From Lineus longissimus (Eukaryota > Nemertea > Pilidiophora > Heteronemertea > Lineidae), in contig NC_088319.1 of NCBI RefSeq assembly GCF_910592395.1, positions 620,001 through 684,000 of the forward strand: a stretch of 64,000 bases of DNA. The letters run 5' to 3'. Position 1 is the first letter of the stretch. Each line of letters opens with the position of its first letter. The position numbers were made by a program, and so were the translations under genes. Positions 15,132-46,986 of this stretch are shown one piece after another. The notes under the pieces are model-generated. The model saw only the letters and a program-made list of their open reading frames with translations, searched no databases and was not told the DNA's origin.

Positions 15132-15314
15132 GGTACTCGCGGAGAAAGACTTCCACAACTCCTAAAAGAATGGCTTGATGACTCATACCTCCGACAGGTG
15201 GCAGCACAGCAAGAGCTAAAAAGGGACGAGGGTGTCAGCAAAAGACAGAAGTCAGTGGATCGGCAGTGCCTTGTCAACCTCGTCGCCTGCTACGGCAAGA
15301 GGAGGAGGAGGTAG
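15132..15314 (+). CDS. Last exon of an amidated somatostatin/allatostatin-C-type neuropeptide precursor
   Basis: The exon follows the acceptor ttatcttttag, starts in phase 0 and encodes 60 residues before TAG. Residues 1-38 are a charged, leucine-rich propeptide ending in Lys-Arg. Then comes QKSVDRQCLVNLVACY followed by Gly-Lys-Arg-Arg-Arg-Arg and stop. After dibasic cleavage the product would be a 16-residue peptide with pyroglutamate start, a Cys7-Cys14 bridge enclosing six residues, and a Tyr-amide end. The C-x6-C ring, the Asn at ring position 3, Val two residues before the second Cys, and a terminal aromatic are ASTC-family features. The arthropod triple-C peptide SYWKQCAFNAVSCF-amide is the closest form I know. 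The secreted hormone would act on a class A GPCR, by family knowledge inhibitory. I found no signal-peptide exon in 1-15131, so the gene is partial here. A paralogue lies at 27731-27922 on the other strand. Confidence 0.82.
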   Translation, partial: GTRGERLPQLLKEWLDDSYLRQVAAQQELKRDEGVSKRQKSVDRQCLVNLVACYGKRRRR

Positions 15315-15673
15315 AGGTCCTAACCTTCACCTTTGACCTTTTTTTTACAATGGATGAAAAAAACGTGAATGTTGTGCCGAATGATGCAAGTTCTGATCGC
15401 GTTCAAAGCCCTTTCTTACATATACGATATCCGCTTGGAAAGAGATAATTCGACGAAGGAAGTGTACGGACCGGAAATCTACCACTCGATGTTAACGTAC
15501 CGAAAGTATACGTTACATGTCAACACGTGCCGATAAACCGAGAGGAATGATGCAGGTCTAATAGGCTACATATAATGTAATTCATCAAACAGAAAACGCG
15601 GAAAACAAAATGCTGTGCACTGCTGACTTCCAACAACTAGAAGTAATGCGCTGTGGGTAGAGTACTACTCTTG

Positions 15674-15812
15674 CACGGTGTCACCTAAAGCCGGTCAACT
15701 ATGACACCGGCTGCCCAGGGCTGTGTGACATTACTATTTGTGATCACACTATTACAGTTTAGTGACAAGAGGTCAGCTAAGTACCTTTGGCCAGATCTGC
15801 CTGAAAAAAACT
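15674..15812 (+). mobile_element. Family A MITE-like element, copy 2 (5' truncated)
   Basis: Contains cacggtgtcacctaaagccg, the palindromic core gtcaactatgacaccggctg, tttgtgatcacactattaca and the right end gtacctttggccagatctg. The left end is missing. Confidence 0.7.
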
Positions 15813-15944
15813 ATCGACGTCGAATCGCCCTTTTTTTAAGGTATTTTGAAGCGACATGTGCCGGCTGATTCAAACCAAGGCGAAACTGAACTCTCGAACA
15901 GTGATATGACGTTATTTTGCCCCGTAAATGACAACGCAGTAGAA

Positions 15945-16105
15945 ATAATTCACCCCTAGCCCCAATACACGGTTTATTGTCTTTTAACAACGCCCGCTGG
16001 CACCTACCCTAAACTCTCATTGTCCTAGTGCAAGGGTCATCGGGGCAAGTCTTGATATCATCGACCCCCTTGAAACAGCTTTCACGGGGGTAGATAAACC
16101 GAACC
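15945..16105 (+). mobile_element. Family B dispersed repeat, copy 9
   Basis: Nearly full length: cctagccccaatacacgg, aacgcccgctggcacc, aagggtcatcggggc and the 3' hairpin pair cgacccccttgaaa and tttcacgggggt. Confidence 0.7.
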
Positions 16106-16258
16106 TGGCAAGGACAGAGAAACGTATTAGATCCTCATGTACATTAGCGTGCTTACTCAAAATTCACCAATCTAAGATCGTTGTGGAATATTCATGAAAC
16201 CGGCAATACCATACACATGGTTGGTTGATGCCATTTAACAAGTTCAATATGGCAAAAC

Positions 16259-16342
16259 AACTATCAATGGCTTGTCGACTCCAGAGTCTTTCAAATAAAT
16301 TTCATTTGAGAGACTCTGTCGACACAAAGTTTTTTGATAGTC
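16259..16342. repeat. Hairpin-forming inverted repeat
   Basis: Two GTCGAC sites (16274-16279 and 16318-16323) flank arms agagtctttcaaat and atttgagagactct, which pair over 14 bp with one mismatch. Outside them actatcaa (left) and ttgatagt (right) extend the inverted repeat. The size and form suit a tiny MITE; no target duplication is evident. Confidence 0.5.
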
Positions 16343-17482
16343 ATGACGTCATGTTATCACTTGACATTTGTCATCAAGGAGGTTGTCTTTGATCGGCGAA
16401 AGAGGAGTTTATGAACTGTTCATAAATGGTTTTGAGCATAATCAGTGCGAAAAAAAAGTAAACTTATTTCTAAAGTTTGCATCATTTGGACGGGATGTAA
16501 TTTTCATAAATGTAAATAAAAGGTGTTTAATGTTTATAAAAATAACACCGCGTTTCTGCTCTCCATTTTATTGAGTTGGCCGCTGCTTGAAGAAGCTTGC
16601 ATTAGAGTTTGACGGGTTTGATGACATTATTCGTCAATCGATCTTATGCAGTCTTATTCAGTCAAAGAAGTGGGACGAAAAAATCTACACTCTAGCGGTT
16701 AGCCTCATCGAATTCCCACGAAACATCAGTCGTGGTTCAATCGACACCTGCTCTCTGCGACATCCCGGGAAAACACAGAGCTGATTTACTTGCTAGAGGA
16801 GGGTTAAGCTAACGAGATGATGAATAAAGGGTGAAGTACCCGTCGCAGAGAAGCGGCAAAGACGCCCCGGAACAGGCCCAAATACACGCAGTAACAAGGG
16901 AACAAACTCTTTCCGCGAATATGGACACAAGAGAGGTGACTTCACCAAGCCCATCCTGGCATGTGCCGATATGGACGAAATATCTCCCATGTGAGTCGTG
17001 TCCAAAATAATGGTAGCTTTGATTCTTCACTCTCTGATTAATAATTCGTAGCTCCATTCCGATATGATTTACAACGGGTTTGTCTACGAAATTTACTTCA
17101 GATAGATTCTTTACGCTCAACGTGATGTATCAAAAACGCTGTATCTATGCGCTGTCGTTTATGAATAATATATCATTGGAGTTTTCGCACCCCTTCGTGA
17201 AAAACTTACGGCTACGTAGTGGATTTATGTGCACCAGTAACTGGTACACAACTTACAGTTCAGTCCCATCAAGTGAGAATGACAACATTCGAGTATCAGC
17301 CTTGCGGTATTGAGGTGGGTGATTGTGAAACAAAATCACTCTCGTCGTTGATTTTTGTAATATCTATGATTCTGGAGTGCAAACAGAGTTGATTAAAACA
17401 TAAATTATGCTTGATCTTTGTGAGGGGATAGGTGCTAAAATGATCAGATGGTGTGAATTTCCATCTGGTGTCACCTCGGCAG

Positions 17483-17657
17483 AAGTCGACCTTTGCTCTC
17501 CCAAGGCAAGCTATAAACTGAGGCCTCTCACTGCCCCTCATTTAGCATCTGAAGCTACGGATGAACCTCACGTTGTAGTTAGTTTTCATTTAAGTTCTCA
17601 CCGAAACACAACTGGAACGATGCCGGATGAGAGTCTCACCCTAACATGGGTGCGGAG
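17483..17657 (+). CDS. Possible upstream exon of the tandem-C2 gene
   Basis: An open stretch ends in tgcggag followed by gtatga, a usable 5' splice site, leaving a two-base (AG) split codon. The next exon (18230) starts with one base, C, which completes Ser. The phases therefore match and the join reads ...LTLTWVRSNVSESL.... A 3' splice site, ctggtgtcacctcggcag, ends at 17482. Alternatively translation could start at the ATG at 17620 (MPDESLTLTW). No domain is recognisable. Phase agreement by chance is about one in three, so this is a weak call. Confidence 0.35.
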
Positions 17658-18229
17658 GTATGATTTTCACTTGTCGTTATAACTTATAGCCCCCGTTCTT
17701 GTTCTACGCTACGCTCCCCTCTCTCAACCACGAATCTAGCGACATTTTTATTCATTTTGCCATCAGCCGACTGTCAAATGACACAGTACGTCCAGACCTG
17801 TATTAGAAGAGAAGTCCTGAGCAGCCCTATCGATCTCGACACCTGGAGTACGCCTGGGGCGACACTGGAAATGTCCAAAGGTCCCTTTATCAATGTACCT
17901 CCCCTGAGAAGTTGTTCCAACTTTGGACACGTCGATGGTACTTTTCAATCCATATGATATGCCTGAAACTCGCAGCGTCAAAGAGAAATCGACATTCGAT
18001 CACGCCCATCATGGACCTGGCGAAAAAGAGGGCAATTTTTAAGAATTCTCCAGCAAGGAAAGTTGGAAGATATGTTTACAAAAAACAACCTTGTATTTTG
18101 CTTTTTCACCTCTCTGACCCTCAAATGAATCAAAAACGGTTTTAGAAAAATAGCCGACAAAAGAGATGACAGTATAATGAACCATTTCGCAATTCTTACA
18201 ATCTGAAATGTTCGTCTTTCTTATTTTAG

Positions 18230-19367
18230 CAATGTTTCCGAAAGCCTCAACAAGTACAGATCCTGGTTCTTATCGCGTGGAAATGCAATGACAAAAGATA
18301 CGACTAGTCTGCAGCAATCTGGGGGGAGAAATTACTCTCCTATGATTGTCAAGACAGATGTCCCTCAGTTCACCATACCACAAAAACAGCGCAAAGATGA
18401 GCATTACATTTCTGAAGATGAGGTTCAAGTTGGAAGTCGGCATGATAGTACCAACTCCGACCCTTACGCAGCCGCAGCACTGTCTTTGCCTCACTTCAAG
18501 TCACAGACAGTCTCCGGCTTCGAGACACTCTCTCAGGCACCACATACCCGTCGAAAAGAGTCTTTATTCCATGACGGTGGATTGAGCCTCTTGCCCCTCC
18601 CAAGCAAACCTATAGGAGTCGAAAGTCAGGTGAACATCGGCTCTACTTCCCTAAATGTTGATATATCTACCGGGCGGAATAGAAAATTTTCGCGCAGTTC
18701 ATCAAAGCGGCGGCAGTTTGATACTCTTCCTGTTGTGTCGCCCTTAATTCCTGATAATTCAGGACTGGCTGTAAAGCGCTGCGCATCAAATGGAAGTGAT
18801 CCGTTCGCAATGACATTTGAAACTTGTCTGTTTGAAATGCGCCCCGAATCTTCCCCCGACAAAGAACAATATTTTTGCCCATCAACATTTCTCTCCGTGA
18901 CGAAAGATATCACCTTTATGGACCCGAAGAGGCCGCGTCCCATCGTAAACAGGCTATTCAGTGAAACCATAGAACATGGTAGTGTTGCTGTCTCCATCAA
19001 ATACACAAAAGAAGAAAGTACACTGACAGTCCAATTAATCAGAGCGAAGAACCTAACACTAAGAAAAGGCAGAGCTGGGCCTATCAACTCGTACGTTAAG
19101 GGATCTCTTATGCCGGGAAAGATCCAAACCCGAATATCAGGCGTTTTAAAAAATACAAGCGACCCTTTCTACTCTGAGGACTTCGTCTTCAGAGATGTTG
19201 CTTTTGAGGCACTACGGGATATGACTGTCCGCTTCAAGTTCTACAATAGGTGCCGTTTGGCCTGCCGCGACGAGGCTATAGGGGTGGTCGAGCTGCCTCT
19301 TGGGTTGGTTGACCTACAGCACGGGGGAAGACTTTGGAAGAATCTCGAACCCGTCAACAAGGAGAAG
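18230..19367 (+). CDS. Synaptotagmin-like tandem-C2 protein: linker and C2A exon
   Basis: The exon runs from acceptor ttcttattttag to donor gagaag/gtaagg and encodes 379 residues. The first 230 or so are a low-complexity Ser/Thr-rich linker (for example SRSSSKRRQFDTLP) with no transmembrane segment. From about residue 231, counted from the Met at 18288, a C2 domain follows: GSVAVSIKYTKEESTLTVQL, then NSYVKGSLMP, KIQTRISGVLKNTSDPFYSE and a late beta-strand segment MTVRFKFYN. The loop positions that bear Ca2+-binding aspartates in classical C2 domains are Asn/Ser or Arg here, so this C2A is probably Ca2+-independent. The layout resembles synaptotagmin-like proteins, Syt14/16 and TC2N, which bind membranes or vesicles; I cannot choose among them. 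The Met at 18288 may be internal, because the frame stays open to the acceptor. Confidence 0.8.
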
Positions 19368-19621
19368 GTAAGGAGGCACTAGTTGTCGTTCTTATCCATG
19401 GTTTTCTGATGGCCTCAGCGATTCAAAAGAAGATAGTCACTAAATTGGCGTTACCGCTAAATTTTGGGAACATTAGGATGCCTTATGCAGGGATAAGCAG
19501 AAGGAGATAACAGGCAGCTCGCGCTGGCACCCGCTAAGATTGATACTTAGTAAGCCTTACGGCTTGAGTCAGCCATTGAAATATTTTCCAAAGATAGCCA
19601 AATGTTTTTATCTTTCAACAG

Positions 19622-19733
19622 GAACTTGGATATATCAGGACAAGTCTGACTTTTGATCCAAAGTCTAAACGTTTGACAGTTACAGTCAGGGAAGCTTTAC
19701 GTCTGCCAATAACAAAGACCGGCGGCGTTCCGA
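19622..19733 (+). CDS. Synaptotagmin-like tandem-C2 protein: first C2B exon
   Basis: The acceptor atctttcaacag and donor ccga/gtaagt bound 112 bases in the phase left by the previous exon. They encode 37 residues (ELGYIRTSLTFDPKSKRLTV then TVREALRLPITKTGGVP) plus one base. The pattern (hydrophobic strand, D-P-K-S-K-R-L-T-V, then an R-L-P loop) is the start of a second C2 domain. The next exon continues it at Pro-Tyr-Val-Lys. Confidence 0.8.
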
Positions 19734-19804
19734 GTAAGTATCATTATGAATTACAATATATACAATTTGGCCTAAAATTGTGACCTTATATGGGGAAGAT
19801 AAAA

Positions 19805-20050
19805 AGTGGTTTTCACATATTCCGGCCAAAGGTACTTAGTTTAGTCAGGTATATGACCAGAACACATTTCGGAGAGGCCTAGCCATTGCTGAAAATAAAT
19901 GCTTTTTTCCGGTGTCAACTAAAGCCGGTCAGTATGATACCGGCTCCCCAGGGCTGTGTGTTACGTTACTACATGTATTTGTGATCACACTATTACTGTT
20001 TTGTTTCAAGACGTCCAAGCACCTTTGGCCAGATTGCTCTGAAAAAAAGT
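19805..20050 (+). mobile_element. Family A MITE-like element, copy 3 (inside the last C2-gene intron)
   Basis: Runs from agtggttttcacatattccg to ctctgaaaaaaagt. It has ggccaaaggtac near the left end and cacctttggccag near the right, plus the core tttgtgatcacactattact. The middle is more diverged than in other copies. Confidence 0.75.
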
Positions 20051-20525
20051 TTACATCAATACGAAAGCCTAGAAGGCCATCATGCGAGATGCGAATTACG
20101 AATTATGAGTAACGAAATGTGACTGAGTCGCAAATTGCGAGTTGCGTGTTACTTTCAATTGGTAGGTTACGCACTTAGCCAATCCCTGAACGACATGAGT
20201 TACCCCGGAAGACGTTTATCCTTTTGGCCGAGCTAATAGAGGACCATATTGAAGCCACAAATGACGAAATCGTTTCATCTCATCCGGGAGTCGGGGCAGG
20301 GAGGGGCAGGTGGTGGTAAATGAAGTCTCATGACCGGACATTTAATCGCCAGTTTACCCTTTGGCTCAAATAGGTCAAAACCATCGGACAAAACATGTAG
20401 GCAGGTTTACATGTTGACTTGTCAATATCTGATGTTATAGTAACCATAGATTTATAAACAATAAGATCCATTTGAAATAAAAACAGTAAGCAATTGATAA
20501 AAATTCTTATGCGGTGGGAGCGGCT

Positions 20526-20939
20526 CGGACCACGGGCTGAATAGCCCCACACTCGACTTACAACCACATCCCAACTGACAACACACGTACGGCACGGACC
20601 ACGGGCTGAATAGCCCCACACTCGACTTACAACCACATCCCAACTGACAACACACGTACGGCTCGGACCACAGGCTGAATAGCCCCACACTCGACTTACA
20701 ACCACATCCCAACTGACAACACACGTACGGCACGGACCACGGGCTGAATAGCCCCACACTCGACTTACAACCACATCCCAACTGACAACACACGTACGGC
20801 TCGGACCACAGGCTGAATAGCCCCACACTCGACTTACAACCACATCCCAACTGACAACACACGTACGGCACGGACCACGGGCTGAATAGCCCCACACTCG
20901 ACTTACAACCACATCCCAACTGACAACACACGTATGTGG
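20526..20939. repeat. 69-bp minisatellite, six units, with 138-bp dimer structure
   Basis: Units start at 20526, 20595, 20664, 20733, 20802 and 20871. Each contains cggaccac, ggctgaatagccccacactc, gacttacaaccacatcccaa and ctgacaacacacgta. Variants alternate between ctcgg and cacgg, and units 3 and 5 share accacaggc, so a two-unit repeat was amplified. As 69 is divisible by three, frames stay open across the array; the resulting 222-codon reverse frame is not a gene. It lies in the last intron of the tandem-C2 gene. Confidence 0.9.
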
Positions 20940-20968
20940 AATGTGTTTGTCAGTCAATTTGGGGACGT

Positions 20969-21053
20969 AAACAACCGCTCTGAAGAAAACGAGCAATCTG
21001 ACTTACGACACGACCTTTATCTTCGCTGTATCGCCAAGGATTCAGGCCATTAA
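20969..21053 (+). pseudogene. Partial duplicate of the C2B exon
   Basis: This is 85 bases collinear with exon positions 21199-21283, offset exactly 230, with about six substitutions and no gap by eye (about 93% identical). It spans the T-T-A-L-K-K-T-S-N to R-I-Q-D-I segment of C2B but has no splice sites of its own. It is followed by tagccccc and cactcgac, a degenerate piece of the adjacent 69-bp repeat unit. Confidence 0.85.
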
Positions 21054-21144
21054 TAGCCCCCCTCCCCCCCACTCGACCGACAAACACGTAGGTTGCATTA
21101 CCATTACTTGCCTGAAGTGTTTAACGTTTATTTTGCACTTTCAG

Positions 21145-21464
21145 ATCCTTATGTGAAAGTTGAGTTGAAACAACAAACTAGCAAGAAGGCACGGCAAAAA
21201 ACAACCGCTCTGAAGAAAACGAGCAATCCGACTTACGACAAGACCTTCACCTTCGCTGTATCGCCAAGGATTCAGGACATTAAATACACAGGCTTAAACT
21301 TCACTATCTATAGCAAAAATCTTATCCTATGCGATGGCGTCATTGGCCAGGTTAAACTCGGGTTCGGATCGACCGAGGAGAGCGAGTTACAACACTGGAA
21401 ACTGGTAGTACAGAACCCTGGACAGACATTCACAGAGGTTCACAAGATAATGGACTTTGATTGA
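21145..21464 (+). CDS. Synaptotagmin-like tandem-C2 protein: terminal C2B exon
   Basis: The acceptor attttgcactttcag gives the matching phase, joining A to AT to read G-V-P-N-P-Y-V-K-V-E-L. The exon encodes 105 more residues and TGA. Conserved C2 landmarks are NPYVK, KKTSNPTYDKTFTF, LNFTIYSKN, GVIGQVKLG and ELQHWKLVVQNPG. The H-W and N-P pair near the C-terminus is seen in synaptotagmin and TC2N C2B domains. The first-loop Asp is Asn, and the third loop (SKNLILCDG) lacks the usual Asp pair, so Ca2+ binding is unlikely. The protein ends HKIMDFD. An 85-bp copy of this exon lies 230 bp upstream. Confidence 0.85.
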
Positions 21465-21536
21465 GTCAGATCATTTATTACATTACGCTCATCACTCCCT
21501 TTGATCAGTTGATACAACCCAGCTCACCAACCTTTC

Positions 21537-21648
21537 TAAAGCTGGTCAACTATGACACCGGATGCCCAGGGCTGTGTAACATTACTATTTGTGATCACAC
21601 TATTACTGTTTAGTGACAAGAGGTCAGCCAAGTACCTTTGGCCAGACC
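21537..21648 (+). mobile_element. Family A MITE-like element, copy 4 (5' truncated)
   Basis: The right half of the family lies just 3' of the C2 gene stop: gctggtcaactatgacaccg, tttgtgatcacactattact and gtacctttggccagac. It may supply 3' untranslated sequence. Confidence 0.7.
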
Positions 21649-22139
21649 CTGCCAACTCGGGTCCCGATAGTGTATGAAGGCACTCAATGGACCGAACATG
21701 AATTAAATCTTGACAATTTCAAAGAGTCCATGTTTTCACTGATCTAAACTTTAGTGTTATACATGTACTTACGTATTCATGCAGTATGTCCACCTTGGAT
21801 CAGCGTAGGGAATTTTACGACGTGTATCGTCCCTTCGATCGGATGTCCTATGAGGTGTTATTTAGAGCTCGAATCGAAGTGCCATCACGCGAGTATTAAT
21901 AGAAGGATATCATGCACGACACAAACTCAAGAAGTCTTCGTGATGAATATGTATTACTCCGTTAACTGAATATACATGTATAGAACGGCAAATACAACTT
22001 CTAACAGAACGAGCACGGCCAAGAGAACGAACGCGCCTACCCGCGAACGACCAATGGTTCAACAATACATATCTATATAGGCCTACATGTACATGACAAT
22101 GGTCAAGACAGTATGGCGCCAATTTCTCGAATGAAACAA

Positions 22140-22254
22140 ATGCCTTTCTTTGCTTTCAAGGAAGAAACGGCAGGCTTTCTTTCATTTATGGGAAGAAACG
22201 ACTGCCATTCTTTGCCTTTTAGGAAGAAACGACAGGTTTCTCTCATTTCTCGAA
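22140..22254. repeat. Imperfect 31-bp tandem repeat, about three units
   Basis: The motif gaagaaacg recurs at 22161, 22192 and 22223 with similar cttt-rich flanks (gcaggctttctttcattt and relatives). Confidence 0.6.
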
Positions 22255-22341
22255 TGAAGGGCTTGCTTCAAGACGACCTTCGTGTTTTTCATATCGTTCA
22301 TATCAAAAGTACGTGTACTTAGTTTAGCTCAATAATGTGAT

Positions 22342-22838
22342 TTATCTGCATTTAAAACAGCATGGGACAATCTCTTTACAAACTTCTGCAGCATCTCGTC
22401 TGTATTTTGCCCCGCCTCCAATACAGTACAAGTAGAAGTTTATTGCGTAGTTAAACATCCACAGATTAAACACGAAGAACACCTGGACCAAATAGCGCAG
22501 GTTCCAATACTCATCGTTCATATCGTAAACGTCTCCAAGCTCTGGCATGTCCATCACGAGATAATACAAACGATAAGGAATTGACGTCACCATGTACGCC
22601 AAGCTAACAAAGATGAGCATGCGCGTCAGGTGCGTTTCCTCCTTCCGGTTCCCCTGACCTTGACCGGCGCTTATTTTTGCCCTTTTTGCCGAAGCAGTTC
22701 TGACCGTGATGATGATGATGATGTTGCATCCGAGGATGATGACGAACGGGATAACAGTCCCCAGGAGCAGTTGCGACAAACTGGCCAATATTTCAATCTC
22801 GATGTGTTCTGGCACCTGAAATACCAGTATTTCGGCTC
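22342..22838 (-). CDS. Class A GPCR, exon 3 (TM5-TM7 and C-tail)
   Basis: The acceptor ttgtattttctgcag (reverse strand) completes the Gly codon left by exon 2. The exon encodes 165 residues and stop. TM5 is LLLGTVIPFVIILGCNIIII, with the canonical Pro. TM6 is LIFVSLAYMVTSIPYRLYYL, lacking the usual C-W-x-P. TM7 ends FNYAINFYLYCIGGG, so the NPxxY Pro is absent. The short tail ends CCFKCR, a possible palmitoylation site. TM7 wording of the type N-x-A-I-N-F-x-L-Y-C occurs in peptide-receptor expansions of invertebrates (family knowledge). Confidence 0.85.
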
Positions 22839-22960
22839 CTGCAGAAAATACAAAACCACGGGCATTAAAGTCTTACATTTTTATAGATATTTTCGAAGTT
22901 GAGGACTCTTATTACTGTGGAGTTGAATGTGACTAGAAAGCCAGCAGCTTGGGCAAAAAA

Positions 22961-23219
22961 AGTGTTTTTCATATCGTTCTTGCCAAAGGTACTCAGTTGA
23001 GCTCAGGAATGTGACCAGATCACCTTTACAAAAGACAGTGGTGCTGCACAATAATAGATTATCCTAAGGGTAGGCCTTTCTGTGTCAACTAAGCCGGTCA
23101 ATTATGACATCGGCCGCCAAGGGCTGTGTAACATTACTATTTGTGATCAAACCACTACAGCTTAGTGACAAGAGGTCAGCCAAGTACCTTTGGCCAGATC
23201 TGTCTGCAGCAAAAACACT
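22961..23219 (+). mobile_element. Family A MITE-like element, copy 5 (inside GPCR intron 2)
   Basis: Both ends are present: agtgtttttcatatcgttct and gcaaaaacact, with inverted inner arms gccaaaggtac and gtacctttggcc. It sits 98 bp from the exon 2 splice donor, in antisense orientation to the receptor gene. Confidence 0.85.
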
Positions 23220-23323
23220 TTACGGCCTTGATAAAGCCATTGGTCGTTGCTTCAACTTTGCAGTTGCTTCTCTACTGATTAACAGGATTCCAATCCACTC
23301 CCCTGCTGTAGTCCTAGACTTAC

Positions 23324-23544
23324 CTGTGATGGGGTTCTTGTAATACACTACCACGAATGGTACATATAAATTGAAGATGACGACTAGGACAGTAGTGATG
23401 ACGACTGTCTTAATGGCCCTGGGTGTGGTACAGAGGCCCGGCGCGGCCAAGGGAAACCTCACGGCAATCAGGCGGTCAATACTCATCTGGGCGAGGAAGA
23501 AACCAGACAACATTGCAAACACAAACCCAAGATAATAATGATAT
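23324..23544 (-). CDS. Class A GPCR, exon 2 (TM3-TM4)
   Basis: Bounded on the reverse strand by the acceptor tttcttgtag and the donor acag/gtaagt, in phases matching exons 1 and 3. TM3 is LGFVFAMLSGFFLAQMSIDR, followed by LIAVRFPL, so the DRY motif is DRL. TM4 is KTVVITTVLVVIFNLYVPFV without the usual Trp. Neither the TM3 start (YKYHYYLG) nor the loop after TM4 contains the disulphide cysteine of typical class A receptors. Confidence 0.87.
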
Positions 23545-24075
23545 CTACAAGAAAGAACAAAAACTTGCTGAGGGTGATGTAACGACCTATCTTCTGTGGC
23601 AATATGTGTATGTAATCACTGAATATATGGATAATTACGACATAGTATCATTAAGAATACCATTAAGAACAACACCTTCAGAAAAAAAGCACCCCCAAGG
23701 TATTCACGCAGATCCAAGTCTCGATGGAAAAATTTTGATCAGACTAGTGCTGAGCGCCTATAGTTCACTTGTGGGGAACAATTGATTGCGGTCGCAAACA
23801 TACATTTGTAGACAGTTTGGATATTTTCCCGTCGAACTCCAGACTCGACTCTTGATACCGAATTGGTGGTTGGGAGGTTCTAGCAGATTGAAAACTACGT
23901 GAAATGATTATAAATTTTGGGTATAAGACGGCAACGAAATTCTTAGCGACTTATGGGCCAAATGATAAACATCTGGACGAGTTTCCGTCCGTTTTTGCGA
24001 AGGACAAAATTGACATTACACAAGAAAGGTATCAAAAACATCGAAACAAACTAACTCGAGCGCAAACCGATTTAC

Positions 24076-24407
24076 TTGTAAAATGCATCCCTCATGTGGA
24101 CAATGTTCTGGCCTGGCTCAGAGTACATTACAGTCAGGCCTAGGACATGCTCCAATAGTTCCAGCGTATCCGCCACGGCCATTGCCTTCATGTAGACACA
24201 CGGCGACAGCGCCCGATTGTGCTTCCTATTCGCCACCAGGATTGACAAGACATTACCAGGAACGCCCAGCACAACTGGAACAATCCAAATGTAGCGAGAA
24301 AGAATTGTGTAGAGTAGAAACAGAAGAGGATGTTCTGGTAACTCGTCGGCCTCGTTGTTGAAGGTCAAGGACGTATTCTTTGCCGCACTGTCGTCCATTG
24401 TGTCCAT
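24076..24407 (-). CDS. Class A GPCR, exon 1 (N-terminus, TM1-TM2)
   Basis: Translation most likely starts at the ATG with first base 24407 (MDTMDDSAAKNTSLTF, with an N-glycosylation site NTS). It lies just inside an acceptor-like site, ttatatttcag, at 24414-24415, implying a 5' untranslated exon further up. TM1 is IWIVPVVLGVPGNVLSILVA, with the conserved Gly-Asn. TM2 is CVYMKAMAVADTLELLEHVL, with the A-x-A-D motif. The donor ttacaa/gtaaat leaves two bases of a Lys codon completed by exon 2. The three exons sum to exactly 349 codons plus stop, so the gene is complete. It is a plasma-membrane receptor, probably for a peptide. The ligand is unknown. Confidence 0.85.
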
Positions 24408-24420
24408 TGTATTCTGAAAT

Positions 24421-24472
24421 ATAATGGAACCTCCCCTAGCGGACATTTCTCTAACCAATACACCCCTTTTTC
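24421..24472 (+). mobile_element. Fragment of pogo-like MITE next to the GPCR first coding exon
   Basis: aatggaacctcccctagcgg followed by acatttctctaa matches one end of the element at 56394-56593. It begins within about 8 bp of the exon 1 acceptor on the other strand, so transposon DNA abuts the receptor's splice region. Confidence 0.55.
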
Positions 24473-24917
24473 GTAGTTCTCCTTTTACTAAAGATAAAGA
24501 AGTATAGCTGTAAACCTTTGAATTTAAGGTTTTTATGCCCACCTAGTATGTCCCAAAAGTATTAATTCAGTATTTTATTGGGGAACATAAAACCTTAGCC
24601 TCGTTGCTCAAAACAAGTTATGTCATTAAACTTAGCGTTAACTTTAACTCGGCGCTTTCTCAATGACTGTACGCTAAGTTAAAAGTAAATGCCAAGTTGA
24701 GAAAATTGGTTTTAAACAACCGGGTTCTGGTTGTGAATCAGAGAACCCGGGAGTATAGCACCCGAAAAACAAAGACCTGGGGTTTAAAACCCGGAATTTC
24801 GGACCAGGGCAAATAGTTTAGGGATGACCCCCCCATCTATGACATCACACAAATATCACCTTGATCAAGACACGACATGCCATCCGTACAATAAAAAGAG
24901 ATAGACTCACCGTAAAT

Positions 24918-25434
24918 CGCCGCGCAATCAAGTGATTTTTTTCGTTGTGGCTTGCGATTATAATCGCGGGTACATGCGGTACAAAATCATATCTCGTCCG
25001 CGGGTAAAATCTGCAATCGCCGTATTTACATTGATCGTAGGCCGTAGTGATCGCCAATCTTTGTTCGAGACACCAGCAATTGTTCGAATTGGGCCTGTTC
25101 TTGGTCATAGACACCTGCGGTAACCACCGCAAACGAGCGATATTTGATGCATTCGATCACGACCACGATCGTCGATCGCACCGACATATATCTACCGCAA
25201 ACGAGCGATATTTGAAGCATTCGATCACGACAACGATCGCCGATCGCACCGATATATATCTACCGCAAACGAGCGATATTTGAAGCATTCGATCACGACA
25301 ACGATCGCCGATCGCACCGATATATATCTACCGCAAGCGAGCGATATTTGAAGCATTCAATCACGATCTCAATCGCAGATCGCACCTGCAAATATTTATC
25401 GTTTTTGTGGCGCTTGATCTCCGTCTGAAACTCG
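24918..25434. mobile_element. Harbinger-like MITE relative with expanded interior
   Basis: Outer parts (cgtaaatcgccgcgcaatca on the left; atcgtttttgtggcgcttga on the right) and internal ctgcggtaaccaccgcaaac resemble the element at 26261-26508. That one has tgcgatgaccatcacaaaca at the corresponding place. The right half is a 68-bp tandem array. The ends are approximate and no target duplication was found. Confidence 0.45.
25126..25397. repeat. 68-bp tandem repeat, about four units, rich in GATC/CGATCG
   Basis: Units start at 25126, 25194, 25262 and 25330 with accgcaa(a/g)cgagcgatat, followed by gcattcgatcacga, cgatcg and ccgatatatatct-like blocks. The last unit is the most diverged. Confidence 0.9.
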
Positions 25435-26260
25435 AGTCGCCGTATGAAATGCCTTGTGTGGACGTAAATGGCTTGCCGCCCGAAAAGTCCAATTCGAATT
25501 CTACATAGTATGCTTTTTAGGATGACTATACATGTCGGCAGCAGCTAGCTCCACCAAATCGAGTTGCACGAAGTCGCCAATAGATGTCTTTACCTCACTA
25601 ACAGTGCAATGTTCTGGTTTTAAACGCATAATATTCCCATAATTCCTGGAATTTTATATCTCGTCTTAATACCTTCACCAAACATGCTCGAGCCGAGGCG
25701 CCATGAATGATACCTTGCACCAGATGGACCACTAAATGAAAATACCCCGAGTAATATTTGTTATATGAAGCTATACTTTTCAATGGACTATACAAAAGGC
25801 GGGTAACCAATGGTTTCCCTGAAATAATATCTACTCATATTGCCGTCATGGTATTTTATATTACAATGCTAGAAGTCCTGTTCTTTTATTGTATTTCTGT
25901 CTAAAAAACGATGCTTGTTTTTGTGCTTTAGTCAGGTCTCTTGGTTTATGGTTGAATGTAACTTGACATCTCCGTGCGATGCAAACCCTACGCCAGCAAA
26001 CAATGGTTTACACGTAATATTGCATTTCAATGCACAGGGGCGTCACTAAGGAGGTGTCATATTCTCGATTTCTTCAAACATATAGATAACTAATACATTT
26101 CGTTCCGGGTTTCACACAAATTTACGTTCCTTTTTATAACTAACTTCTCCAGAAAGGGACGCAAAATACACTTCAATATATAAAACAAATTTATTCATAA
26201 AAATAATATACATCCAGGAATCCAATGTTCTTTATCGATTACACCACACTTAGTCAATAA

Positions 26261-26508
26261 AGCACCCGCAAATGAACGATTTTTTGTCGCAACGACCTAC
26301 ATCGTTTTTCACAGCGATGATCGAGCGATAAAATGATCGCCCGTCTGTAGGGAAAACCAGTAATCGCTGGCGTTGATATTGATTGCAGCTCGCGATCACC
26401 GGTTGTAGTCACATATTCCTGCGATGACCATCACAAACAAGCGATTTCTGTCGCATGTGATCATGGTTAGAGGTCGCAGCGACGATACTTGCTCGTTTGC
26501 GAGGCACT
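26261..26508. mobile_element. Harbinger-like MITE with TAA target duplication
   Basis: The ends agcacccgcaaatgaacgat and (inverse of the right end) agtgcctcgcaaacgagcaa are similar inverted repeats continuing to gtcgc and cgacc. Trinucleotide TAA flanks both sides (26258-26260 and 26509-26511), the target-site size of PIF/Harbinger elements. The element is 248 bp with no open frame. Confidence 0.65.
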
Positions 26509-26511
26509 TAA

Positions 26512-27730
26512 AGGGACAATATTCTAAATGTTATGACCCAAACCTGAACTTCAAATGTACATGTTATTTCTAACAGCAAGTTCTTGATAAGTTAGTCCTC
26601 CTAGAGAACACGGCATTAGTCACCATAAGATAAAATCGCACAACAGAATATTTTCATCCTGGACTTTCCTGCCATCGACCTATTCCTTTCACACCGGCGC
26701 TATAGCTTTTGTAGAACAGTCGCGGTGGCAGCGCAATAGTCGGCAATTTAGAGTTGCTATACCTTTCCCTTGCAATACATCACTGAAAGAGGCACTTGGA
26801 AAATATTAAATACACACTGGCCACCTATCGGAAACTTTAGAACTAAAATACGTCTTGACAGATTCATACATAAAATCATTCGTTTGATAAAATCTGCACA
26901 TCAGTCCACAATAATGTTCGAATTATTCAATTCATGAAGGATACAGACAACTTGTCCGAGTTATAAACATGAGTTTATAGAGAATTCATCAGTTCATCCG
27001 GAGGCAAAGATAGTGACACGCCAACGTCCTGTAAAAATCGCCAGGAAAAATCGCCTGCATTTCAAAACCATGCGATATCGCGTCAAGTCACATTCAGTGG
27101 AAACCTACCCTCAATGAGTGGTGTTGGGGAAAATATTGTCGGCCGTTGACCAACCAACCTGGACAATATCGACCACACACCGCGTGTTCTGAGTGGTATG
27201 AAAATGTCCGAGCTGAAACTTTATGTTGTCGTTGCACTCGATTCGCCCAACTCACTGGCGAAACATCTCCATGTGACGTGTATGTGTGGTTCATGTGAAA
27301 TTGTTGAGATGGAGTTACTGCATTCCATCAATTGTATAAAATGAGAGAAGAAACTACCAAATTGAATAAAACGAATGATTCCATTCTGCTAGCAGCAAGT
27401 AGGATTTACCTCCAAGAACGAGTTGTTTGTAGTGAAACAAACAGTTTAAGTTCGTCCTTGAAGTAGGCCCGTAATACCCACTCGTTCACAGGCTTGACTC
27501 GATAAGAAGGGTCGCTTGTAACATGCAATGATGGGGTGTCCTACGGCGGTACCTGCCCTTTAACGAGAATACAAGCAAGCAATGTATCATGATATTCTAT
27601 CGTCCTAGGAGGGAACGCCATCGTTAGGCCCCTCGTCTACCAAGAAAGAGTACTTCCACTGGCCGCCAGGTGGCGTAACGATTAAGATACTGGATTCCAT
27701 TTAAAGCTAACACATGGTGTCACTACAATG
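26512..27730. other. Spacer, nothing recognised
   Basis: No exon or repeat family is identified. The segment lies 3' of the reverse-strand neuropeptide exon, so its right end should hold that gene's 3' untranslated region. Confidence 0.35.
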
Positions 27731-27922
27731 CTAATAGTAGCAGGTTACCAGCAGCCAGTAGCAAGGCCGCGGTTTCCTGTATCGCTGCCGGCGCCCTGAC
27801 ATCTTCCCTCGCTTTCCGAATGTTCGTTTTGATTCGGAGCTTTGCCGCAAGAGGTCGTAATAGTTGTCCAGTTGCGCAATAACTCCTGCGTCCGGCGATG
27901 GGTCGGAATTACCTGGCTGGTT
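27731..27922 (-). CDS. Last exon of a non-amidated somatostatin/allatostatin-C-type neuropeptide precursor
   Basis: On the reverse strand the acceptor attttatacttccag is followed, in phase 0, by 63 codons and TAG. The propeptide (GVIAQLDNYYDLLRQSSES) is followed by basic sites Lys-Arg, Gly-Lys-Arg and Gly-Arg-Arg. The C-terminal peptide QRYRKPRPCYWLLVTCYY ends at the stop codon. After cleavage at Arg-Arg it would be 18 residues with pyroglutamate start, a Cys9-Cys16 bridge around six residues, and a free carboxyl end. C-x6-C with an aromatic after each Cys matches ASTC (QVRFRQCYFNPISCF). L-V-x-C-Y around the second Cys is shared with the amidated peptide at 15132. The whole 3' exon is G+C richer than its surroundings. 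Its likely first exon is 60637-60810. The frame also stays open upstream of the acceptor, but that part lacks precursor features. Confidence 0.8.
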   Translation of the reverse strand, partial: NQPGNSDPSPDAGVIAQLDNYYDLLRQSSESKRTFGKRGKMSGRRQRYRKPRPCYWLLVTCYY

Positions 27923-28176
27923 CTGGAAGTATAAAATTTTATGTCGGTTAATGTAATATCGAATTATTGCCTCATCACAATGTCGCATCACCCGCGGACG
28001 AGCCATACGATCTGCGCAGGAATACTAACAAGTCATGGGAAAGTTGAGAAGTGAGAAATTAATTGCAAGTTTTTTTATCGTGCATTACAGTATACATTAA
28101 AACAATACTACGAAGCAACCAGGGTGTTTTCGAATTGCAAATTAAGTCTTTGTTAGATTCGCTTCCCAACTGAACA

Positions 28177-28332
28177 GTTGCTGACAAGAGTTGCTGACAA
28201 GAGTTGCTGACAAGAGTTGCTGACAAGAGTTGCTGACAAGAGTTGCTGACAAGAGTTGCTGACAAGAGTTGCTGACAAGAGTTGCTGACAAGAGTTGCTG
28301 ACAAGAGTTGCTGACAAGAGTTGCTGACAAGA
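28177..28332. repeat. 13-bp minisatellite, 12 near-perfect units
   Basis: The unit gttgctgacaaga is repeated 12 times with no visible variation. Three units make 39 bases (13 codons), so all three reverse frames are open with a 13-residue period; these frames are not genes. The array lies about 250 bp upstream of the reverse-strand neuropeptide exon, within its proposed intron. Confidence 0.95.
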
Positions 28333-29290
28333 GTAGATATACGGTGTCACCATGATAAGAACCAATCACTAATAGTGGGCTTACGTCATTTATTCTCTAA
28401 GCCCTTCGAATATACTATCAATGCACAAATAGACGGCTTCACCAACTATTTTTTATCAAAAATGCGCATTCTTATGTCGTTTGTGATGTATTAAAGTCAT
28501 CCAACTCCTTTGCCGAATTATCTGCTATTCATATGGAAGAATTGTACTTATAACGTAATCGGAATATCTAAATTGAATATTCTTGGGTGAGCTTACCAAC
28601 GAACGTTGTTTGAATACATAATTAATTAACTGTATGAATAAGTATGATTTCTAATTCATATTGTTCCAAACGACGACAAAAGAATGGTTAATTGGCCATT
28701 ATCATGCGATAGATGTGAGGCAAAATCAATAATGGAGGCGGGTCGCTGATAAGAGACACTCTGTCTTGGCCAGAATAATGAACATTAGACTACCAAAATT
28801 GAAAAGCGTGGGTAGATTTGTACTTTTCCTATTCTGATTTAGTAAAGTAATTATTTCTGAAAATATATGAAGTTTTCCCAATTTTGTTTCAACTCATTCG
28901 GTATCAGACATTATACATGCAGCATTGCAAAAAGTAAAAACACATACTTTCTTACTCCCAGAAACTTTGATTCACAAGATGTCAGTAAACCCAATTAGTG
29001 ATTACTAGTTTTTAAGCTGCAGCTGGTAGCTGTCATGTTCGCCATTCCATATTCCAACAGAGGGGTCAGTAATATCCTGAGTGGACTGCTCACCACAATG
29101 GTAAGACGTCTATTGTGGTTGCTGTCCTTTCGCTAGGGCTTCCTGGGTACGTTCTAAATCAAGGTACCGAAAGGACACCATACCAGTATGTAAGAGACAA
29201 AAGTGGAAAACGAATGTTACATGTAGTACTGTAAAAAGGTGAATGTGTGTGCCCCTTTATTTCGACCCTCCCTAAAAACACCTAACACTT
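28333..29290. other. Spacer, nothing recognised
   Basis: AT-rich, with no exon or repeat family copy identified. Confidence 0.35.
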
Positions 29291-29362
29291 TACCACAGTA
29301 GGCCGTGTCTTGGGCTAGGCCTGAATTATTTTAACTGCTTTGTAAGAGGCAAAATGACGTAC
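29291..29362 (-). mobile_element. Family B dispersed repeat, copy 10 (5' part)
   Basis: The reverse strand carries aattcaggcctagcccaaga and cacggcctactg. The 3' hairpin half is absent. Confidence 0.45.
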
Positions 29363-29723
29363 TGCCTACGTAATCGCATTACGGTCGGTAACAAGGGTTT
29401 ATATCAAGCCATCCCATCGAACAATGGTAAGCTGCGTCAAAGTGATTGAAGTTTATTATGGTACAATAGGGCATCGCCTGACCGGTTGTTGTCGATGACT
29501 ATCAGTTTAAACAACGGAATGTATTGAAAACCTATAACCAATCATAGTCAGGAGCACAATAACAATGGTATTGACTCAGATTGAAGCAATGCATACGTTC
29601 GTGCATGATACATTGTGTTTGTTTGCGGAGCAAGTAATAGAATAGCACACTGACGCTGTGCATCAAACAGACACGTCAACATGATGACAATTGACCTATA
29701 ACAGTATATTTACAATGGTGTAT

Positions 29724-29954
29724 AGCGTTTTTTATATCGCTCTGGCCAAAAGTACATTGTCGAACTGAGGAATGGTACCAGGTCACATTTACCAAAAGAT
29801 AGTGGTGTCGCACAACACTAGATTATCCTTTGGAAGTCAACTATGACACCAGCTGCCGAGGGCTGTGTGACATTACTATTTGTGATCACACTATTGCAGT
29901 TAGGTGACAAGAGGTCAGCCAAGTACCTTTGGCCAGATCTATCTGAAAAACTCT
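29724..29954 (+). mobile_element. Family A MITE-like element, copy 6
   Basis: Runs from agcgttttttatatcgctct to atctatctgaaaaactct. Inner arms ggccaaaagtac and gtacctttggcc are inverted. It holds cgcacaacactagattatcc and tttgtgatcacactattgca. Confidence 0.8.
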
Positions 29955-30659
29955 ATCATGAACAGCAACAATGTTTGTATTAAATGATTATATGCACAAG
30001 GGGATGAAAAACGTAACGTATATTATACAATGCGTTTAGTTGATTCCACTGGATTCATCATAACAGATGGAAATACTTTCATTTTGGTACTAGTCGTATA
30101 ACTAGCTCATTTCTACGCTTAGCAGATGATAACTCGTCCCGGTAAGACCCATCCAAGCACATGCGTGTAGCTTATGACGCGGCAAGTGGATATGCACTTG
30201 ACACGGAATGTGAGAATACTGGTTAGCTTGATGTGTTCATCATGGTGCAGACATGACAGAAAGCGTTGGGAATAGCTGTCGTTTACTACTATCAGGACAT
30301 CGCAAATGTCTCGTCAAACACATCCAATGACAAAATAACGGAAATGTAAAGCTTGGCAAACATATGCCTCAAATAGTTTATAGTGATTGCGAGACTTCAG
30401 AGGACCTGATCCGCATTGCAGAGGACCGATCCCTATGGTGCCAAGTAGTCATGCATGCAGCGACGCCCCAGTGGCCTAACAGCTGCGGGACATGATGATG
30501 ATGAGACTTCCGAGATGAGTAAACACTAGATATGTGGATATAACAAGATGTCATATGATACTAGTATTCTGACAATCATGGTCAGTCTAGACAGCATTAT
30601 TAGGCCGGGCAAAAACAAAAACTGTTTACTCCTTCATATCTTTAGAACTCCGAATATGA

Positions 30660-30892
30660 TCTCAACAACTTGACAAAACTGAGTCTTTTATATAGCGCAA
30701 TTCCGTGACACTATAGTTCTCGCTCAAAGCGCTTTGGGATATCATATTATTACCCCGGTCTCCACAAAAATCAATCAGGGGTTTCAAGGAGCAACCACTT
30801 GAACTCGACCTAAGCAGTGACCCGGCCGGGAGTCGAACCCACGACCTCCTGATCATGAGGCCGACTCTCTTCCACTGCGCTACCGCTGCCCC
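30660..30892 (-). mobile_element. tRNA-derived SINE
   Basis: On the reverse strand it starts ggggcagcggtagcgcagtg, a good RNA polymerase III A box, followed at tRNA spacing by gtgggttcgactcccggcc, a near-consensus B box. The body ends in aaagcgctttgagcgagaac and a gcgctatataaaag tail. Such tails are widespread in SINEs of aquatic animals and mimic a partner LINE 3' end (family knowledge). The 95-codon reverse frame here is a by-product. Confidence 0.85.
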
Positions 30893-31724
30893 ATATCCAG
30901 AACCATGACTGTAAAACGATGAGGAAGTAAAAGTATGTAGACAGAACAAAAGCGCGGTGACGAAAGAGGGTGTGAACGAGTGTGGTGAACGAGGAGATCA
31001 GTGTGGATTAATCGCATTGTCATTGTCTCTTCAAAGACGTTATTGGAAGTCAATTTCTTGTTTTCTAGAACAACATAATGCGTGAACAATTGGTCGGAAA
31101 CAAGTAGAACGTCGTCAATTTCTCGCACCAAACGCATTATTTGGAGTCAATTCCTTGAGGTTCCTGATCAGGATTACTTATTTTCTATACTCCTTTTTAT
31201 ATGGTCCTTTATCTTTGACTTGCGTTTATGGTTAAGGTGGTCTACATCACAACTTTTTTTCCGAGCATGGCTGGTTCTTAATTGTCTGGCAACGAGCAGG
31301 ACCAGCACATTGTACCAGCCTGTACCCTATCCGTGGTAGATTTGGCCTCGAATCACTAGACCCGGTACACGTATCATTGAATGGCCTGGCAGAGGTTAAA
31401 TCTGAATTATCCTGATGCAATTCATCGCAAGTTTCAAAGAACCAGAACTTGGTTTTAATTAAATTTTACGATTGTGCGATCGATCACGTGCAAAGGCCAG
31501 TTATTGCAAATGGTCACGAACAGAAATAAAAAATTTCATCTGATTCTTGTTCAACGAATAGAAATTGTATTTCATAATTGAAAATGAAAATGGGGCGATA
31601 CATTGAATACGTGCGGGTGTATTGTGCGGCGGATTAATCAAACAAGATCTCCAATAAATGTGGGATAAATGTACAAAGGTAAACCACAAACTTTATTCGC
31701 AATCATTTGTAAGATATAATAAAA

Positions 31725-31964
31725 AGTGTTTTTCATATCGTTTTGGCCAAATTCATCTAGTTGAACGCAGGAATGTGACCAAATCACTATTACCAAAAGA
31801 AAGTGGAGTTGCACAACACTAGATTATCCTGATGGTAGGCCTATAATCAATGCTTGAAGAGGAATACTCGTTCACGGTGTCAACTAACGCCGGTCAACTA
31901 TGACACCGGCTACGCAGGGGTGCGCCACATTATTATTTGTGACCACATTATTACCAGTCTAGTG
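31725..31964 (+). mobile_element. Family A MITE-like element, copy 7 (3' truncated)
   Basis: Begins agtgtttttcatatcgtttt and contains gttgcacaacactagattat, gtcaactatgacaccggcta and a diverged tttgtgaccacattattacc. It breaks off before the ggccagatct end. Confidence 0.75.
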
Positions 31965-33188
31965 CCGGGGAGATCTACCTTAAAGCCACCCGATACCATG
32001 AAGATCCAACTGATACTTATTTTAAAATGCCAGGGTGAAGCAGTACTTGTATATTCCGAGGAAATATAACCAAGATATAAAAAGTGCCTACGGGACCACT
32101 TTATAAAATGCTAACTTTGAAAATAACAGTTTTCCGACATTTTTGTGGGAACCCAAAGTTCAGCAAATATCACCCGCCCTCATTAAATAGACAATTTTAT
32201 AGAATTTTGCCAGGGACGATTCGACAGCGAGTACATATAGTGGATACCTTTTTTCCATATTGGGTCTAGTCTTCCGAAGGTTTTGCAAACTAAGTGGTGT
32301 TACTGACATTTATCAGCAAATAACCAGACACGTGTCAGACACGTAACTGAGAATGCTTTTTTTGGAAAGATCAGTTTTCGCATTTTGGGGCCTGGTATGC
32401 TCATGGGACCATTTGGTAACTGAATAGACCATAATTGGGCTTGGTCTGAATTCTTTGTTTGCGATGTATGGTTTAAAAAGGGGATGTGTGGAGTTTTTCA
32501 AACGTGAAAAATATGGGGAACAAACAAATAATGGAATGGTAGTTATCAATAAACTTGAGTAAGGCTGCTAGAGGAAAAAAGAGTACAGAATATTACTCAA
32601 TATGTACATAGGATACATGTGTCCACCAGGTGAAATCTGTTTTATACCAACAAAATCCATCAAATTGCCAAATCTTTATTGTTTTTTCCGGCAAACCAAT
32701 TTGCCGAGTTACCCTCGCCGATAGGGATAACTCGTTCTCTAGGATGGTAATGTTATGCTAAATATGAAAGTTGATCATGCTCTTCCGGGGAGTTTACGTG
32801 TAATTTCCGAAAGAAACGATTAGTATAAATGTCACTTGAGATGTCATGACTTAGATAAATGCCTGACCGATGATTACAAGAATGAAATCTTAGTATAAAT
32901 AAACACTGACCAGCGTCATCGAAATTACATCAACTTGACATTTGAAAGCTTGATGTAACGGCAAAATTTTAAGCATCTGAACCAAACACTTAACACAGGC
33001 AGTTGAAACTGATGTTTTCACCACAAACATTCACTTGAATAGGATTGGACTCTGATTTTGACATTATTACATCAATTAGATTAGACATTGATTTTGCCAC
33101 AATATACCTAAATTGGTTGGCCATTTTGCTACCGTATATGACACCATTAAGACATGCAAAAGGACCGTTGGTCCATTTTGCAGCAACG
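31965..33188. other. Spacer, nothing recognised
   Basis: AT-rich, without exons or identified repeats. Confidence 0.35.
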
Positions 33189-33340
33189 CAATAGAACTTC
33201 CCTTAGCGGACACCTCTCTATTAATGACAACCTCTCGTTTACAATGTAACGACACTAGTTTCAATTTGACCTCTCTAATCAGGACACCTCTCTATCAAGG
33301 ACAGCACTTGTCAGTCCCGAGGAGAGGAGAGGTTCTACTG
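33189..33340 (-). mobile_element. Pogo-like MITE, copy (left end decayed)
   Basis: Ends caatagaacttcccttagcg and, inverted on the right, cagtagaacctctcctctcc match those of the 56394-56593 copy. TA follows the right end. The left TA is lost. The internal tctctaatcaggacacctct is shared. Confidence 0.6.
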
Positions 33341-33948
33341 TACTTTGCCATTGGACATGTTGGAGGCGTGAACACACATTGGCACTATGATAAACCAACG
33401 GCCGCTTTATATTAAGTTCGATACGGCACGTTAGCGACTTTATCACTGGACGGAAACTGATGACATGTCCATCTAGATCCCACGCGACATTCCCTTTGAA
33501 TCGGAAATTTATCATGAAAGAGCGAAAATAATCTGCGAGGAAGCGGATATAAAGCAAAAGCTAGTGTACAGCAGGAGGTTCGGGCAAATCTCAGATACCG
33601 AACACTATGCATTCTTAAAGAGAAAGTTTTTTAAAGATTTTGGAAATCAATTGAGGTATTTTCTGTAGCCCCAACCCAACGTCACCTAATACTGCTATCA
33701 CCAAAGCATATCAAAAAAGTTGTCAAAAGCAGGTCCCTTACATGACCAGCCAAAATCAAATGCCAGACTGTCTCTTCGAATGATTATTGATCTGGCACAT
33801 AACAATTGATTCTGCCGTAAAGACAAATACATGTAGGTCTACTTGTATTCATAGCCCCTGTTCCTAAGCCGACAATGACTATACCAGCACTTACTGTACC
33901 AACCTATCTGGAGTTCTAGCAAGCTGTTGTAATTGTTACTCCTCCTGT

Positions 33949-34185
33949 GACGTTTTTTCATATCGTTCTCAACAAAGGTACTCAGTTGAATTCGGGACTG
34001 TGACGAGATCACCTTTACCAAAAGATAGTGGTGTGCACAACACCAGATTGTCCTTGGTAAGGCCTTACCAGTGTTCACCACGGTGTCAAGTATAAAAAGC
34101 TGGTCAACTATGACACAGGATGCCCAGGCCTGTGTAACATTACTATTTGTGATCAAACTATTACAGTTTAGTGATAAGAGGTCAT
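33949..34185 (+). mobile_element. Family A MITE-like element, copy 8 (3' truncated)
   Basis: Starts gacgttttttcatatcgttc and holds gtgcacaacaccagattgtc, gtcaactatgacacaggatg and tttgtgatcaaactattaca. It ends abruptly after agtgataagaggtca. Confidence 0.75.
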
Positions 34186-38598: not shown

Positions 38599-38843
38599 AG
38601 TTTTTTTGGATAGATCTGGCCAAAGGTACTTGGCTGACCTCTTGTCACTAAACTGTAATAGTGTGATCACAAATAGTAATGTTACACAGCCCTGGGCAGC
38701 TGGTGTCATAGTTGACCGCTTTTGTCAACACCATGAAAGAGCATTGGTTGGGCCTGCCTTCTAAAGGTAACGTAGTGTTGTGCAACACCACTCTAATTTA
38801 GTAAATATGATCTTGTCACATTTCTGAGTTCAACAAAAACACT
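38599..38843 (-). mobile_element. Family A MITE-like element, copy 9
   Basis: Begins agtttttttggatagatctg with ggccaaaggtacttggctga and holds tgtgatcacaaatagtaatg and gtgttgtgcaacaccact. It ends near caaaaacact, with the ctttggccag arm lost. Confidence 0.75.
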
Positions 38844-46814: not shown

Positions 46815-46986
46815 GTTCACGTTGTCACTTGTCATGTTTCACTGGTCACGAGTTAACTGAACACGATGTGAGGGTGAAAAGTGACCTCGTGAATCGTATG
46901 CAGCCCGCTCTGCGGAAATGGCTTGTTCGTTCTTCATGTTACGCAAGGAAAGTGAACAGTGACGCGTTACATGTGTTAACGTGAAC
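46815..46986. mobile_element. Short inverted-repeat element, possibly Harbinger-related
   Basis: The left arm gttcacgttgtcacttgtca and the inverse of the right arm gttcacgttaacacatgtaa agree at most positions over about 36 bp. gtcacttgtca is also found in the subterminal region of 62318-62944. No target duplication is evident. Confidence 0.4.

Follow-up and report, generated by a model that had tools for sequence, protein, structure and literature searches.

Two last exons of the allatostatin-C type in opposite orientation

The stretch of DNA analysed here (the window) comprises 64,000 nucleotides of the ribbon worm, or nemertean, Lineus longissimus (RefSeq assembly GCF_910592395.1, contig NC_088319.1, positions 620,001 to 684,000 of the forward strand) and contains the last coding exons of two neuropeptide precursor genes, gene 1 and gene 2, which by sequence appear to belong to the allatostatin-C (AstC or ASTC) branch of the somatostatin (SS)/ASTC superfamily. 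The last coding exon of gene 1, stop included, lies on the + strand (15132..15314), where a phase-0 acceptor behind a pyrimidine tract opens a frame of 60 codons that ends in the stop TAG. The sequence before the exon is TTTCCTTTTTATCTTTTAG, and the phase is forced because the acceptor's own TAG closes the frame. The exon translates as GTRGERLPQLLKEWLDDSYLRQVAAQQELKRDEGVSKR-QKSVDRQCLVNLVACY-GKRRRR-stop; the predicted peptide, QKSVDRQCLVNLVACY together with its amide-donor Gly (15246..15296, +), has SKR ahead and GKRRRR behind, and thus the amidation signal Gly-Lys-Arg directly follows a peptide with two Cys six residues apart (C-x6-C). A shorter predicted form, QCLVNLVACY, occupies 15264-15293 (+).

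The last coding exon of gene 2, stop included, lies on the - strand (27731..27922) behind a likely phase-0 acceptor, is preceded by TTTTATACTTCCAG, and translates from 27922 to 27731 as ...SGRR-QRYRKPRPCYWLLVTCYY-stop. Its predicted peptide, QRYRKPRPCYWLLVTCYY-OH (27734..27787, -), has GRR ahead and the stop immediately behind. An earlier note on this DNA had proposed two 3' exons at 15132-15314 and 27731-27922, one encoding an amidated peptide and the other a non-amidated one, and both proposals hold: each exon is present and in frame and encodes one C-terminal C-x6-C peptide.

We scanned 244 kb on both strands for a dibasic site, C-x6-C, an aromatic/aliphatic residue and a stop or Gly-dibasic ending, all behind a pyrimidine-rich acceptor, and exactly the two exons matched, whereas 40 order-2 Markov sequences gave a mean of 0.05 matches, with one match in each of 2 of them. 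Because the pattern was drawn up after both exons had been seen, the true surprise is somewhat smaller. The scan and the exons bear out the claim of the same note that two linked precursor genes of the SS/ASTC superfamily lie here in opposite orientation. When each last exon was used as a query against the 391-Mb genome (E<=10, best candidates scored), it matched only itself and neither recovered the other. A genome-wide scan with the core pattern for a third AstC gene was not selective (528 matches on both strands vs 398 in the control); a CYW-like pattern gave 107 matches vs 74, with places given for part of the matches. Rfam gave no match on the window or on 14600-14900.

Candidate first exons and gene models

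Upstream of each last exon, we searched for an ATG followed by a hydrophobic stretch and a phase-0 donor. The candidate first coding exon of gene 2, MSKQLLCSILLTFVALGLVSQNVVQC-RPVDPEMDLPNLNRVFLELAGTQSNDMDDMNT, lies at 60637..60810 (-) and ends at the phase-0 donor ACG|GTAAGT. Among the 146 rows on the - strand of the 244 kb it ranks third, and it is the best one with the hydrophobic stretch before the donor; the two higher-ranked rows share one donor, and in both of them the hydrophobic stretch lies beyond it. The putative intron would then be 32.7 kb long (27923..60636, -). The candidate first exon of gene 1, MDSRRFTLAVVLILGMVCGSLGRAWLNDE, is the top row of 114 on the + strand (C12:581,878-581,964, donor GAG|GTAGGG) and has a TATAAA 95 bases ahead of its ATG; it lies 38 kb upstream of the window and 53 kb from its last exon. 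Of the nearer first-exon candidates for gene 1 within the window, the best, at 11816, was rejected because, judged by eye, it has no signal-peptide-like cleavage region.

The two candidate first exons, at 60637..60810 and C12:581,878-581,964, are strong candidates for an N-terminal signal peptide, and joined to the last exons they would give predicted precursors of 89 residues (gene 1) and 121 residues (gene 2). The two gene models would be convergent and span about 99 kb end to end, so that the distance in the earlier note, "within 13 kb", applies to the span of the last exons but not to the whole genes. SS and ASTC genes are reported to share a phase-0 intron within the N-terminal part of the coding sequence (PMC7536072); the acceptor side of such an intron is present in both genes (in gene 2 as the likely acceptor), and the donor side is seen on the candidate exons only.

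The putative intron of gene 2 also holds, about 250 bases upstream of the last exon, a perfect 13-bp minisatellite (28176-28334, unit AGTTGCTGACAAG, 12.2 copies, 100% match) and, at 45741-46157 (-), a reverse transcriptase fragment (PF00078, E 1.7e-17).

Assignment to the AstC type and comparison with known peptides

Each predicted peptide is single and C-terminal, has its two Cys six residues apart, and continues from the second Cys with an aromatic residue (gene 1 reads CY-Gly here, gene 2 CYY), a position at which Tyr/Phe is stated to set ASTC apart from somatostatin (PMC5996578). Between the cysteines, gene 1 has LVNLVA and gene 2 has YWLLVT, and neither contains the FWK/IWK motif described for echinoderm SS2 and many chordate SS peptides (PMC8851493). 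At the Pro position of the arthropod FxP, both have Leu (CLVNLVACY, CYWLLVTCY), which fits the lophotrochozoan core, since lophotrochozoan ASTC peptides are reported to have V/L/I where arthropods have Pro (PMC8851493); the Phe of that motif is replaced by Val in gene 1 and by Trp in gene 2. Judged by these residues, both peptides are of the AstC type and do not form an SS/ASTC pair.

A text search with six fragments taken from the two peptides matched only one paper (PMC5996578) in the literature searched, with subscription papers mostly outside it. This paper gives the AstC of the scallop Patinopecten yessoensis as GHIQCLVNLVACYamide, in which the decapeptide QCLVNLVACY and the amide are identical to those of gene 1 (9 of 9 core residues), whereas the residues ahead of the decapeptide differ; one scallop AstC gene is described there. 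Aplysia AstC, SHYSSMCMFNVVACY, likewise has C-x6-C, shares 6 of the 9 core residues with gene 1 and activates an AstC-type G-protein-coupled receptor (GPCR), but is given without an amide, unlike gene 1 (PMC8786951). The core of gene 2 (CYWLLVTCYY) is identical to that of gene 1 at 5 of 9 residues, to Aplysia AstC at 4 of 9 and to three lobster peptides at 3 or 4 of 9. By its core, gene 1 appears to be the conserved lophotrochozoan AstC, and gene 2 appears to be a divergent copy.

The arthropod peptides AST-C, AST-CC and AST-CCC also come from local paralogs, acid ones and one amidated, as the lobster peptides show, and the family is called a local gene triplication in the title of Veenstra 2016 and in sentences citing it; their cores differ from those of the ribbon-worm pair, with 3 or 4 of 9 residues identical. 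In the beetle Nicrophorus, the AST-CCC gene is described as encoding the signal peptide and a few residues in one exon and the peptide itself in the last coding exon (PMC6585902), as in the models proposed here.

A candidate receptor

We searched the genome with an approximate somatostatin-receptor-like query and scored the best 150 of 607 candidates, among which 25 matched at E <= 1e-10. The best match, L021 (C1:26996263-26997018), has an uninterrupted frame of 406 aa; every one of its 18 best solved matches is a somatostatin receptor, with E from 1.8e-80. No close paralog of L021 was found among the 15 frames compared of the 25 matches (best 170 bits vs 850 for the self-match). By these matches the genome has at least one clear somatostatin/AstC-type receptor gene, L021. 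Two other matches, L022 and L023, have galanin receptors as their best matches, and we take them to be of the allatostatin-A type. L023 (C1:6455265-6456017) and L024 (C1:6451426-6452181) are neighbouring galanin-receptor-like frames separated by about 4 kb, and further relatives lie on C20, C4 and C14; together they form a small expansion of receptors that are probably of the allatostatin-A type.

Proposed processing and action of the two precursors

We propose that in each precursor gene exon 1 encodes the signal peptide, that a phase-0 intron tens of kilobases long follows, and that the last exon encodes a single peptide at the C-terminus. Going by the sequence and the general pathway, removal of the signal peptide would be followed by convertase cleavage at the basic sites and by carboxypeptidase trimming, the N-terminal Gln of each peptide would become pyroglutamate (pGlu), and the two Cys would form a disulphide loop. 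Gene 1 would thus yield the looped QKSVDRQCLVNLVACY-NH2, amidated on Tyr from its Gly, or alternatively, by a cut at a single Arg (VDR|Q; a Lys stands four residues ahead of this Arg), the scallop-like pGlu-CLVNLVACY-NH2; some L. longissimus peptides are reported to suggest cleavage at single basic residues that have another basic residue 3-6 positions upstream (PMC8557429). Gene 2 would yield the free-acid 18-mer pGlu-RYRKPRPCYWLLVTCYY-OH. As neuropeptides, both would be ligands of a somatostatin/AstC-type receptor, for which L021 (C1:26.996 Mb) is the candidate.

Work on the crab Carcinus reports a single receptor for both AST-C and AST-CC; the amidated AST-CCC failed to activate it, apart from a slight effect when the dose was very high, and did not activate the other candidates either, and no receptor of its own is known (PMC11959706). 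This difference between amide and acid makes the ribbon-worm pair worth a receptor assay: a worm with an amidated and a free-acid AstC and at least one clear receptor would be a simple setting in which to ask if the end cap decides receptor choice.

Origin of the linked pair

Taking these observations together, we are confident, short of certainty, that two nemertean AstC precursor genes lie tail-to-tail on chromosome 12, gene 1 being the conserved AstC and gene 2 an old, inverted and diverged duplicate of it. The last exons align over 45 columns that include LD..Y..LRQ, KR, RQ and C...LV.CY, and only 2 of 2000 shuffles reach the score; a longer alignment of the pro-regions is reached by 8 of 2000. 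No inverted DNA duplication was found within 12000-32000, the part of the window that holds both last exons (both first exons and the greater part of the intron sequence lie outside it), which makes a very recent copy unlikely. Four inverted pairs do occur in this part, but all of them are 27-44-base copies of a dispersed repeat, and a recent inverted duplication is disfavoured. A dispersed 24-base element, GAGGTCAGCCAAGTACCTTTGGCC, is present in the window in 10 copies on both strands with <=3 mismatches (0.00 expected by chance), at 9963, 15769, 21620, 23172, 29911, 38618, 44120, 55414, 61354 and 61587.

Several points weigh against this reading. The linker without the peptide aligns no better than 132 of 2000 shuffles allow, and thus, with the whole exons beyond chance and the linker not, the genes are paralogs by peptide and family, with weak homology outside the peptide. 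Neither last exon has a Pfam family, no relatives were found in the protein database for the gene 1 exon or for the precursors of gene 1 and gene 2, and among solved structures the gene 2 exon had no match (best E 0.84). The frame of gene 2 stays open for another 34 codons upstream of its acceptor, which is therefore not forced, and the candidate first exon of gene 1, at its distance of 53 kb, could belong to another gene. The amide shared with the scallop may be convergent, because the amidated Tyr of scallop AstC is described as unlike other bivalves (PMC5996578); an amide on Tyr may be old and often lost, or may have been gained twice. The two genes are very probably AstC1 and AstC2 of an earlier transcriptome study (PMC8557429), matched by family and species and not by letters; either gene may be AstC2, and the AstC2-precursor peptide(s) detected there by mass spectrometry may or may not include the C-x6-C peptide.

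The simplest and most likely history is that an old local duplication, accompanied by inversion, took place on the nemertean side, because an AstC gene is reported to be single in all but one of 27 mollusc species (PMC8514136) and a second paralog is reported for nemerteans. A comparable local event is described in one bivalve, where two AstC genes with identical peptides lie on one fragment (PMC8514136, whose discussion names a different species). These counts also speak against placing the pair in an ancestral protostome cluster, in which the acid gene 2, with its Gln-x-Tyr-Arg start, would correspond to AST-C/AST-CC and the amide gene 1 to AST-CCC, molluscs having lost one. This scenario draws on the lobster set, with acid AST-C and AST-CC beside an amidated AST-CCC in what is called a local triplication (Veenstra 2016), to which the nemertean pair, also local and with one acid and one amide, bears a likeness. 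However, anchored core scores do not pair the genes in this way: gene 1, which has the amidation signal, scores 29 for AST-CCC, 29 for AST-CC and 26 for AST-C, and gene 2 scores 21, 30 and 27, respectively. Furthermore, the second paralog is reported from nemerteans but from no brachiopod, and the phoronid transcriptomes yielded no AstC (PMC8557429). We therefore regard the ancestral cluster as unlikely. If it were true, the arthropod triplication would have begun before the arthropod/lophotrochozoan split, most molluscs would have lost one copy, and the scallop amide would fall on the side of AST-CCC, which has no known receptor in crabs.

Less probable still is that one of the exons is a non-expressed relic or a chance motif and that the second nemertean AstC gene lies elsewhere. 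The unselective core-pattern scan leaves room for other AstC-like exons, but both frames are intact with acceptor, cleavage sites and stop, only 0.05 such motif matches are expected in 244 kb, and the candidate first exon of gene 2 is a very good one. The least probable reading, which we consider highly improbable, is an ancient SS-type/ASTC-type pair as in echinoderms, with the linkage kept in a protostome. The phase-0 intron and the C-terminal peptide would suit it, being common to both branches of the superfamily; the Cys spacing, the aromatic residue after the second Cys and the lack of FWK/IWK in either peptide led us to reject an SS1/SS2-type pair. Starfish likewise have two superfamily genes in one species, but these are one of each type, SS1 (ASTC-type) and SS2 (SS-type), on different chromosomes (PMC8851493), and hence the starfish comparison drawn in the earlier note is not supported for two AstC-type peptides.

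Relation to earlier reports

That nemerteans have AstC and a second paralog was reported from transcriptomes by Thiel et al. 2021 (PMC8557429), who also confirmed AstC2-precursor peptide(s) by mass spectrometry in L. longissimus larvae, and L. longissimus is among the species in the SS/ASTC alignment of a 2022 PNAS paper (PMC8851493, legend). What is added here is that the genes are linked tail-to-tail, together with candidate models for both genes and the amidated core identical to that of the scallop. No report of the linkage was found in the literature searched (again with subscription papers mostly outside it), and the letters "synten" are absent from the main text of PMC8557429. The accessible part of PMC13121700 does not name the ancestral linkage group of chromosome 12. 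With the physical linkage as a landmark, AstC duplications could be dated across lophotrochozoans and arthropods.

Genes and repeats between the pair

Two other genes lie between the last exons. A synaptotagmin-like gene on the + strand has two C2-domain exons (18207-19382 and 21057-21464; PF00168, E 9.7e-14 and 2.5e-15), the first of which has synaptotagmin-7 as its best solved match (E 2.6e-17). A class-A GPCR gene on the - strand (22342..24542) matches 7tm_1 (PF00001) on 22342-22872 and 23220-23615 (E 7.4e-09 and 7.5e-08); its third, upstream frame (24072-24542) was recognised by eye only and has no PF00001 match. That this gene is the receptor of the two peptides finds no support, the best solved match of 22345-22872 being rhodopsin (E 0.004), with somatostatin receptors at E >= 0.036. 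Between the C2 exons, 20521-20934 consists of six 69-bp tandem copies, 97% alike, with two - strand open frames (224 and 165 aa) that are likely made by the repeat, and between the GPCR gene and gene 2 a 68-bp tandem repeat (25126-25386) has 3.8 copies, 94% alike.

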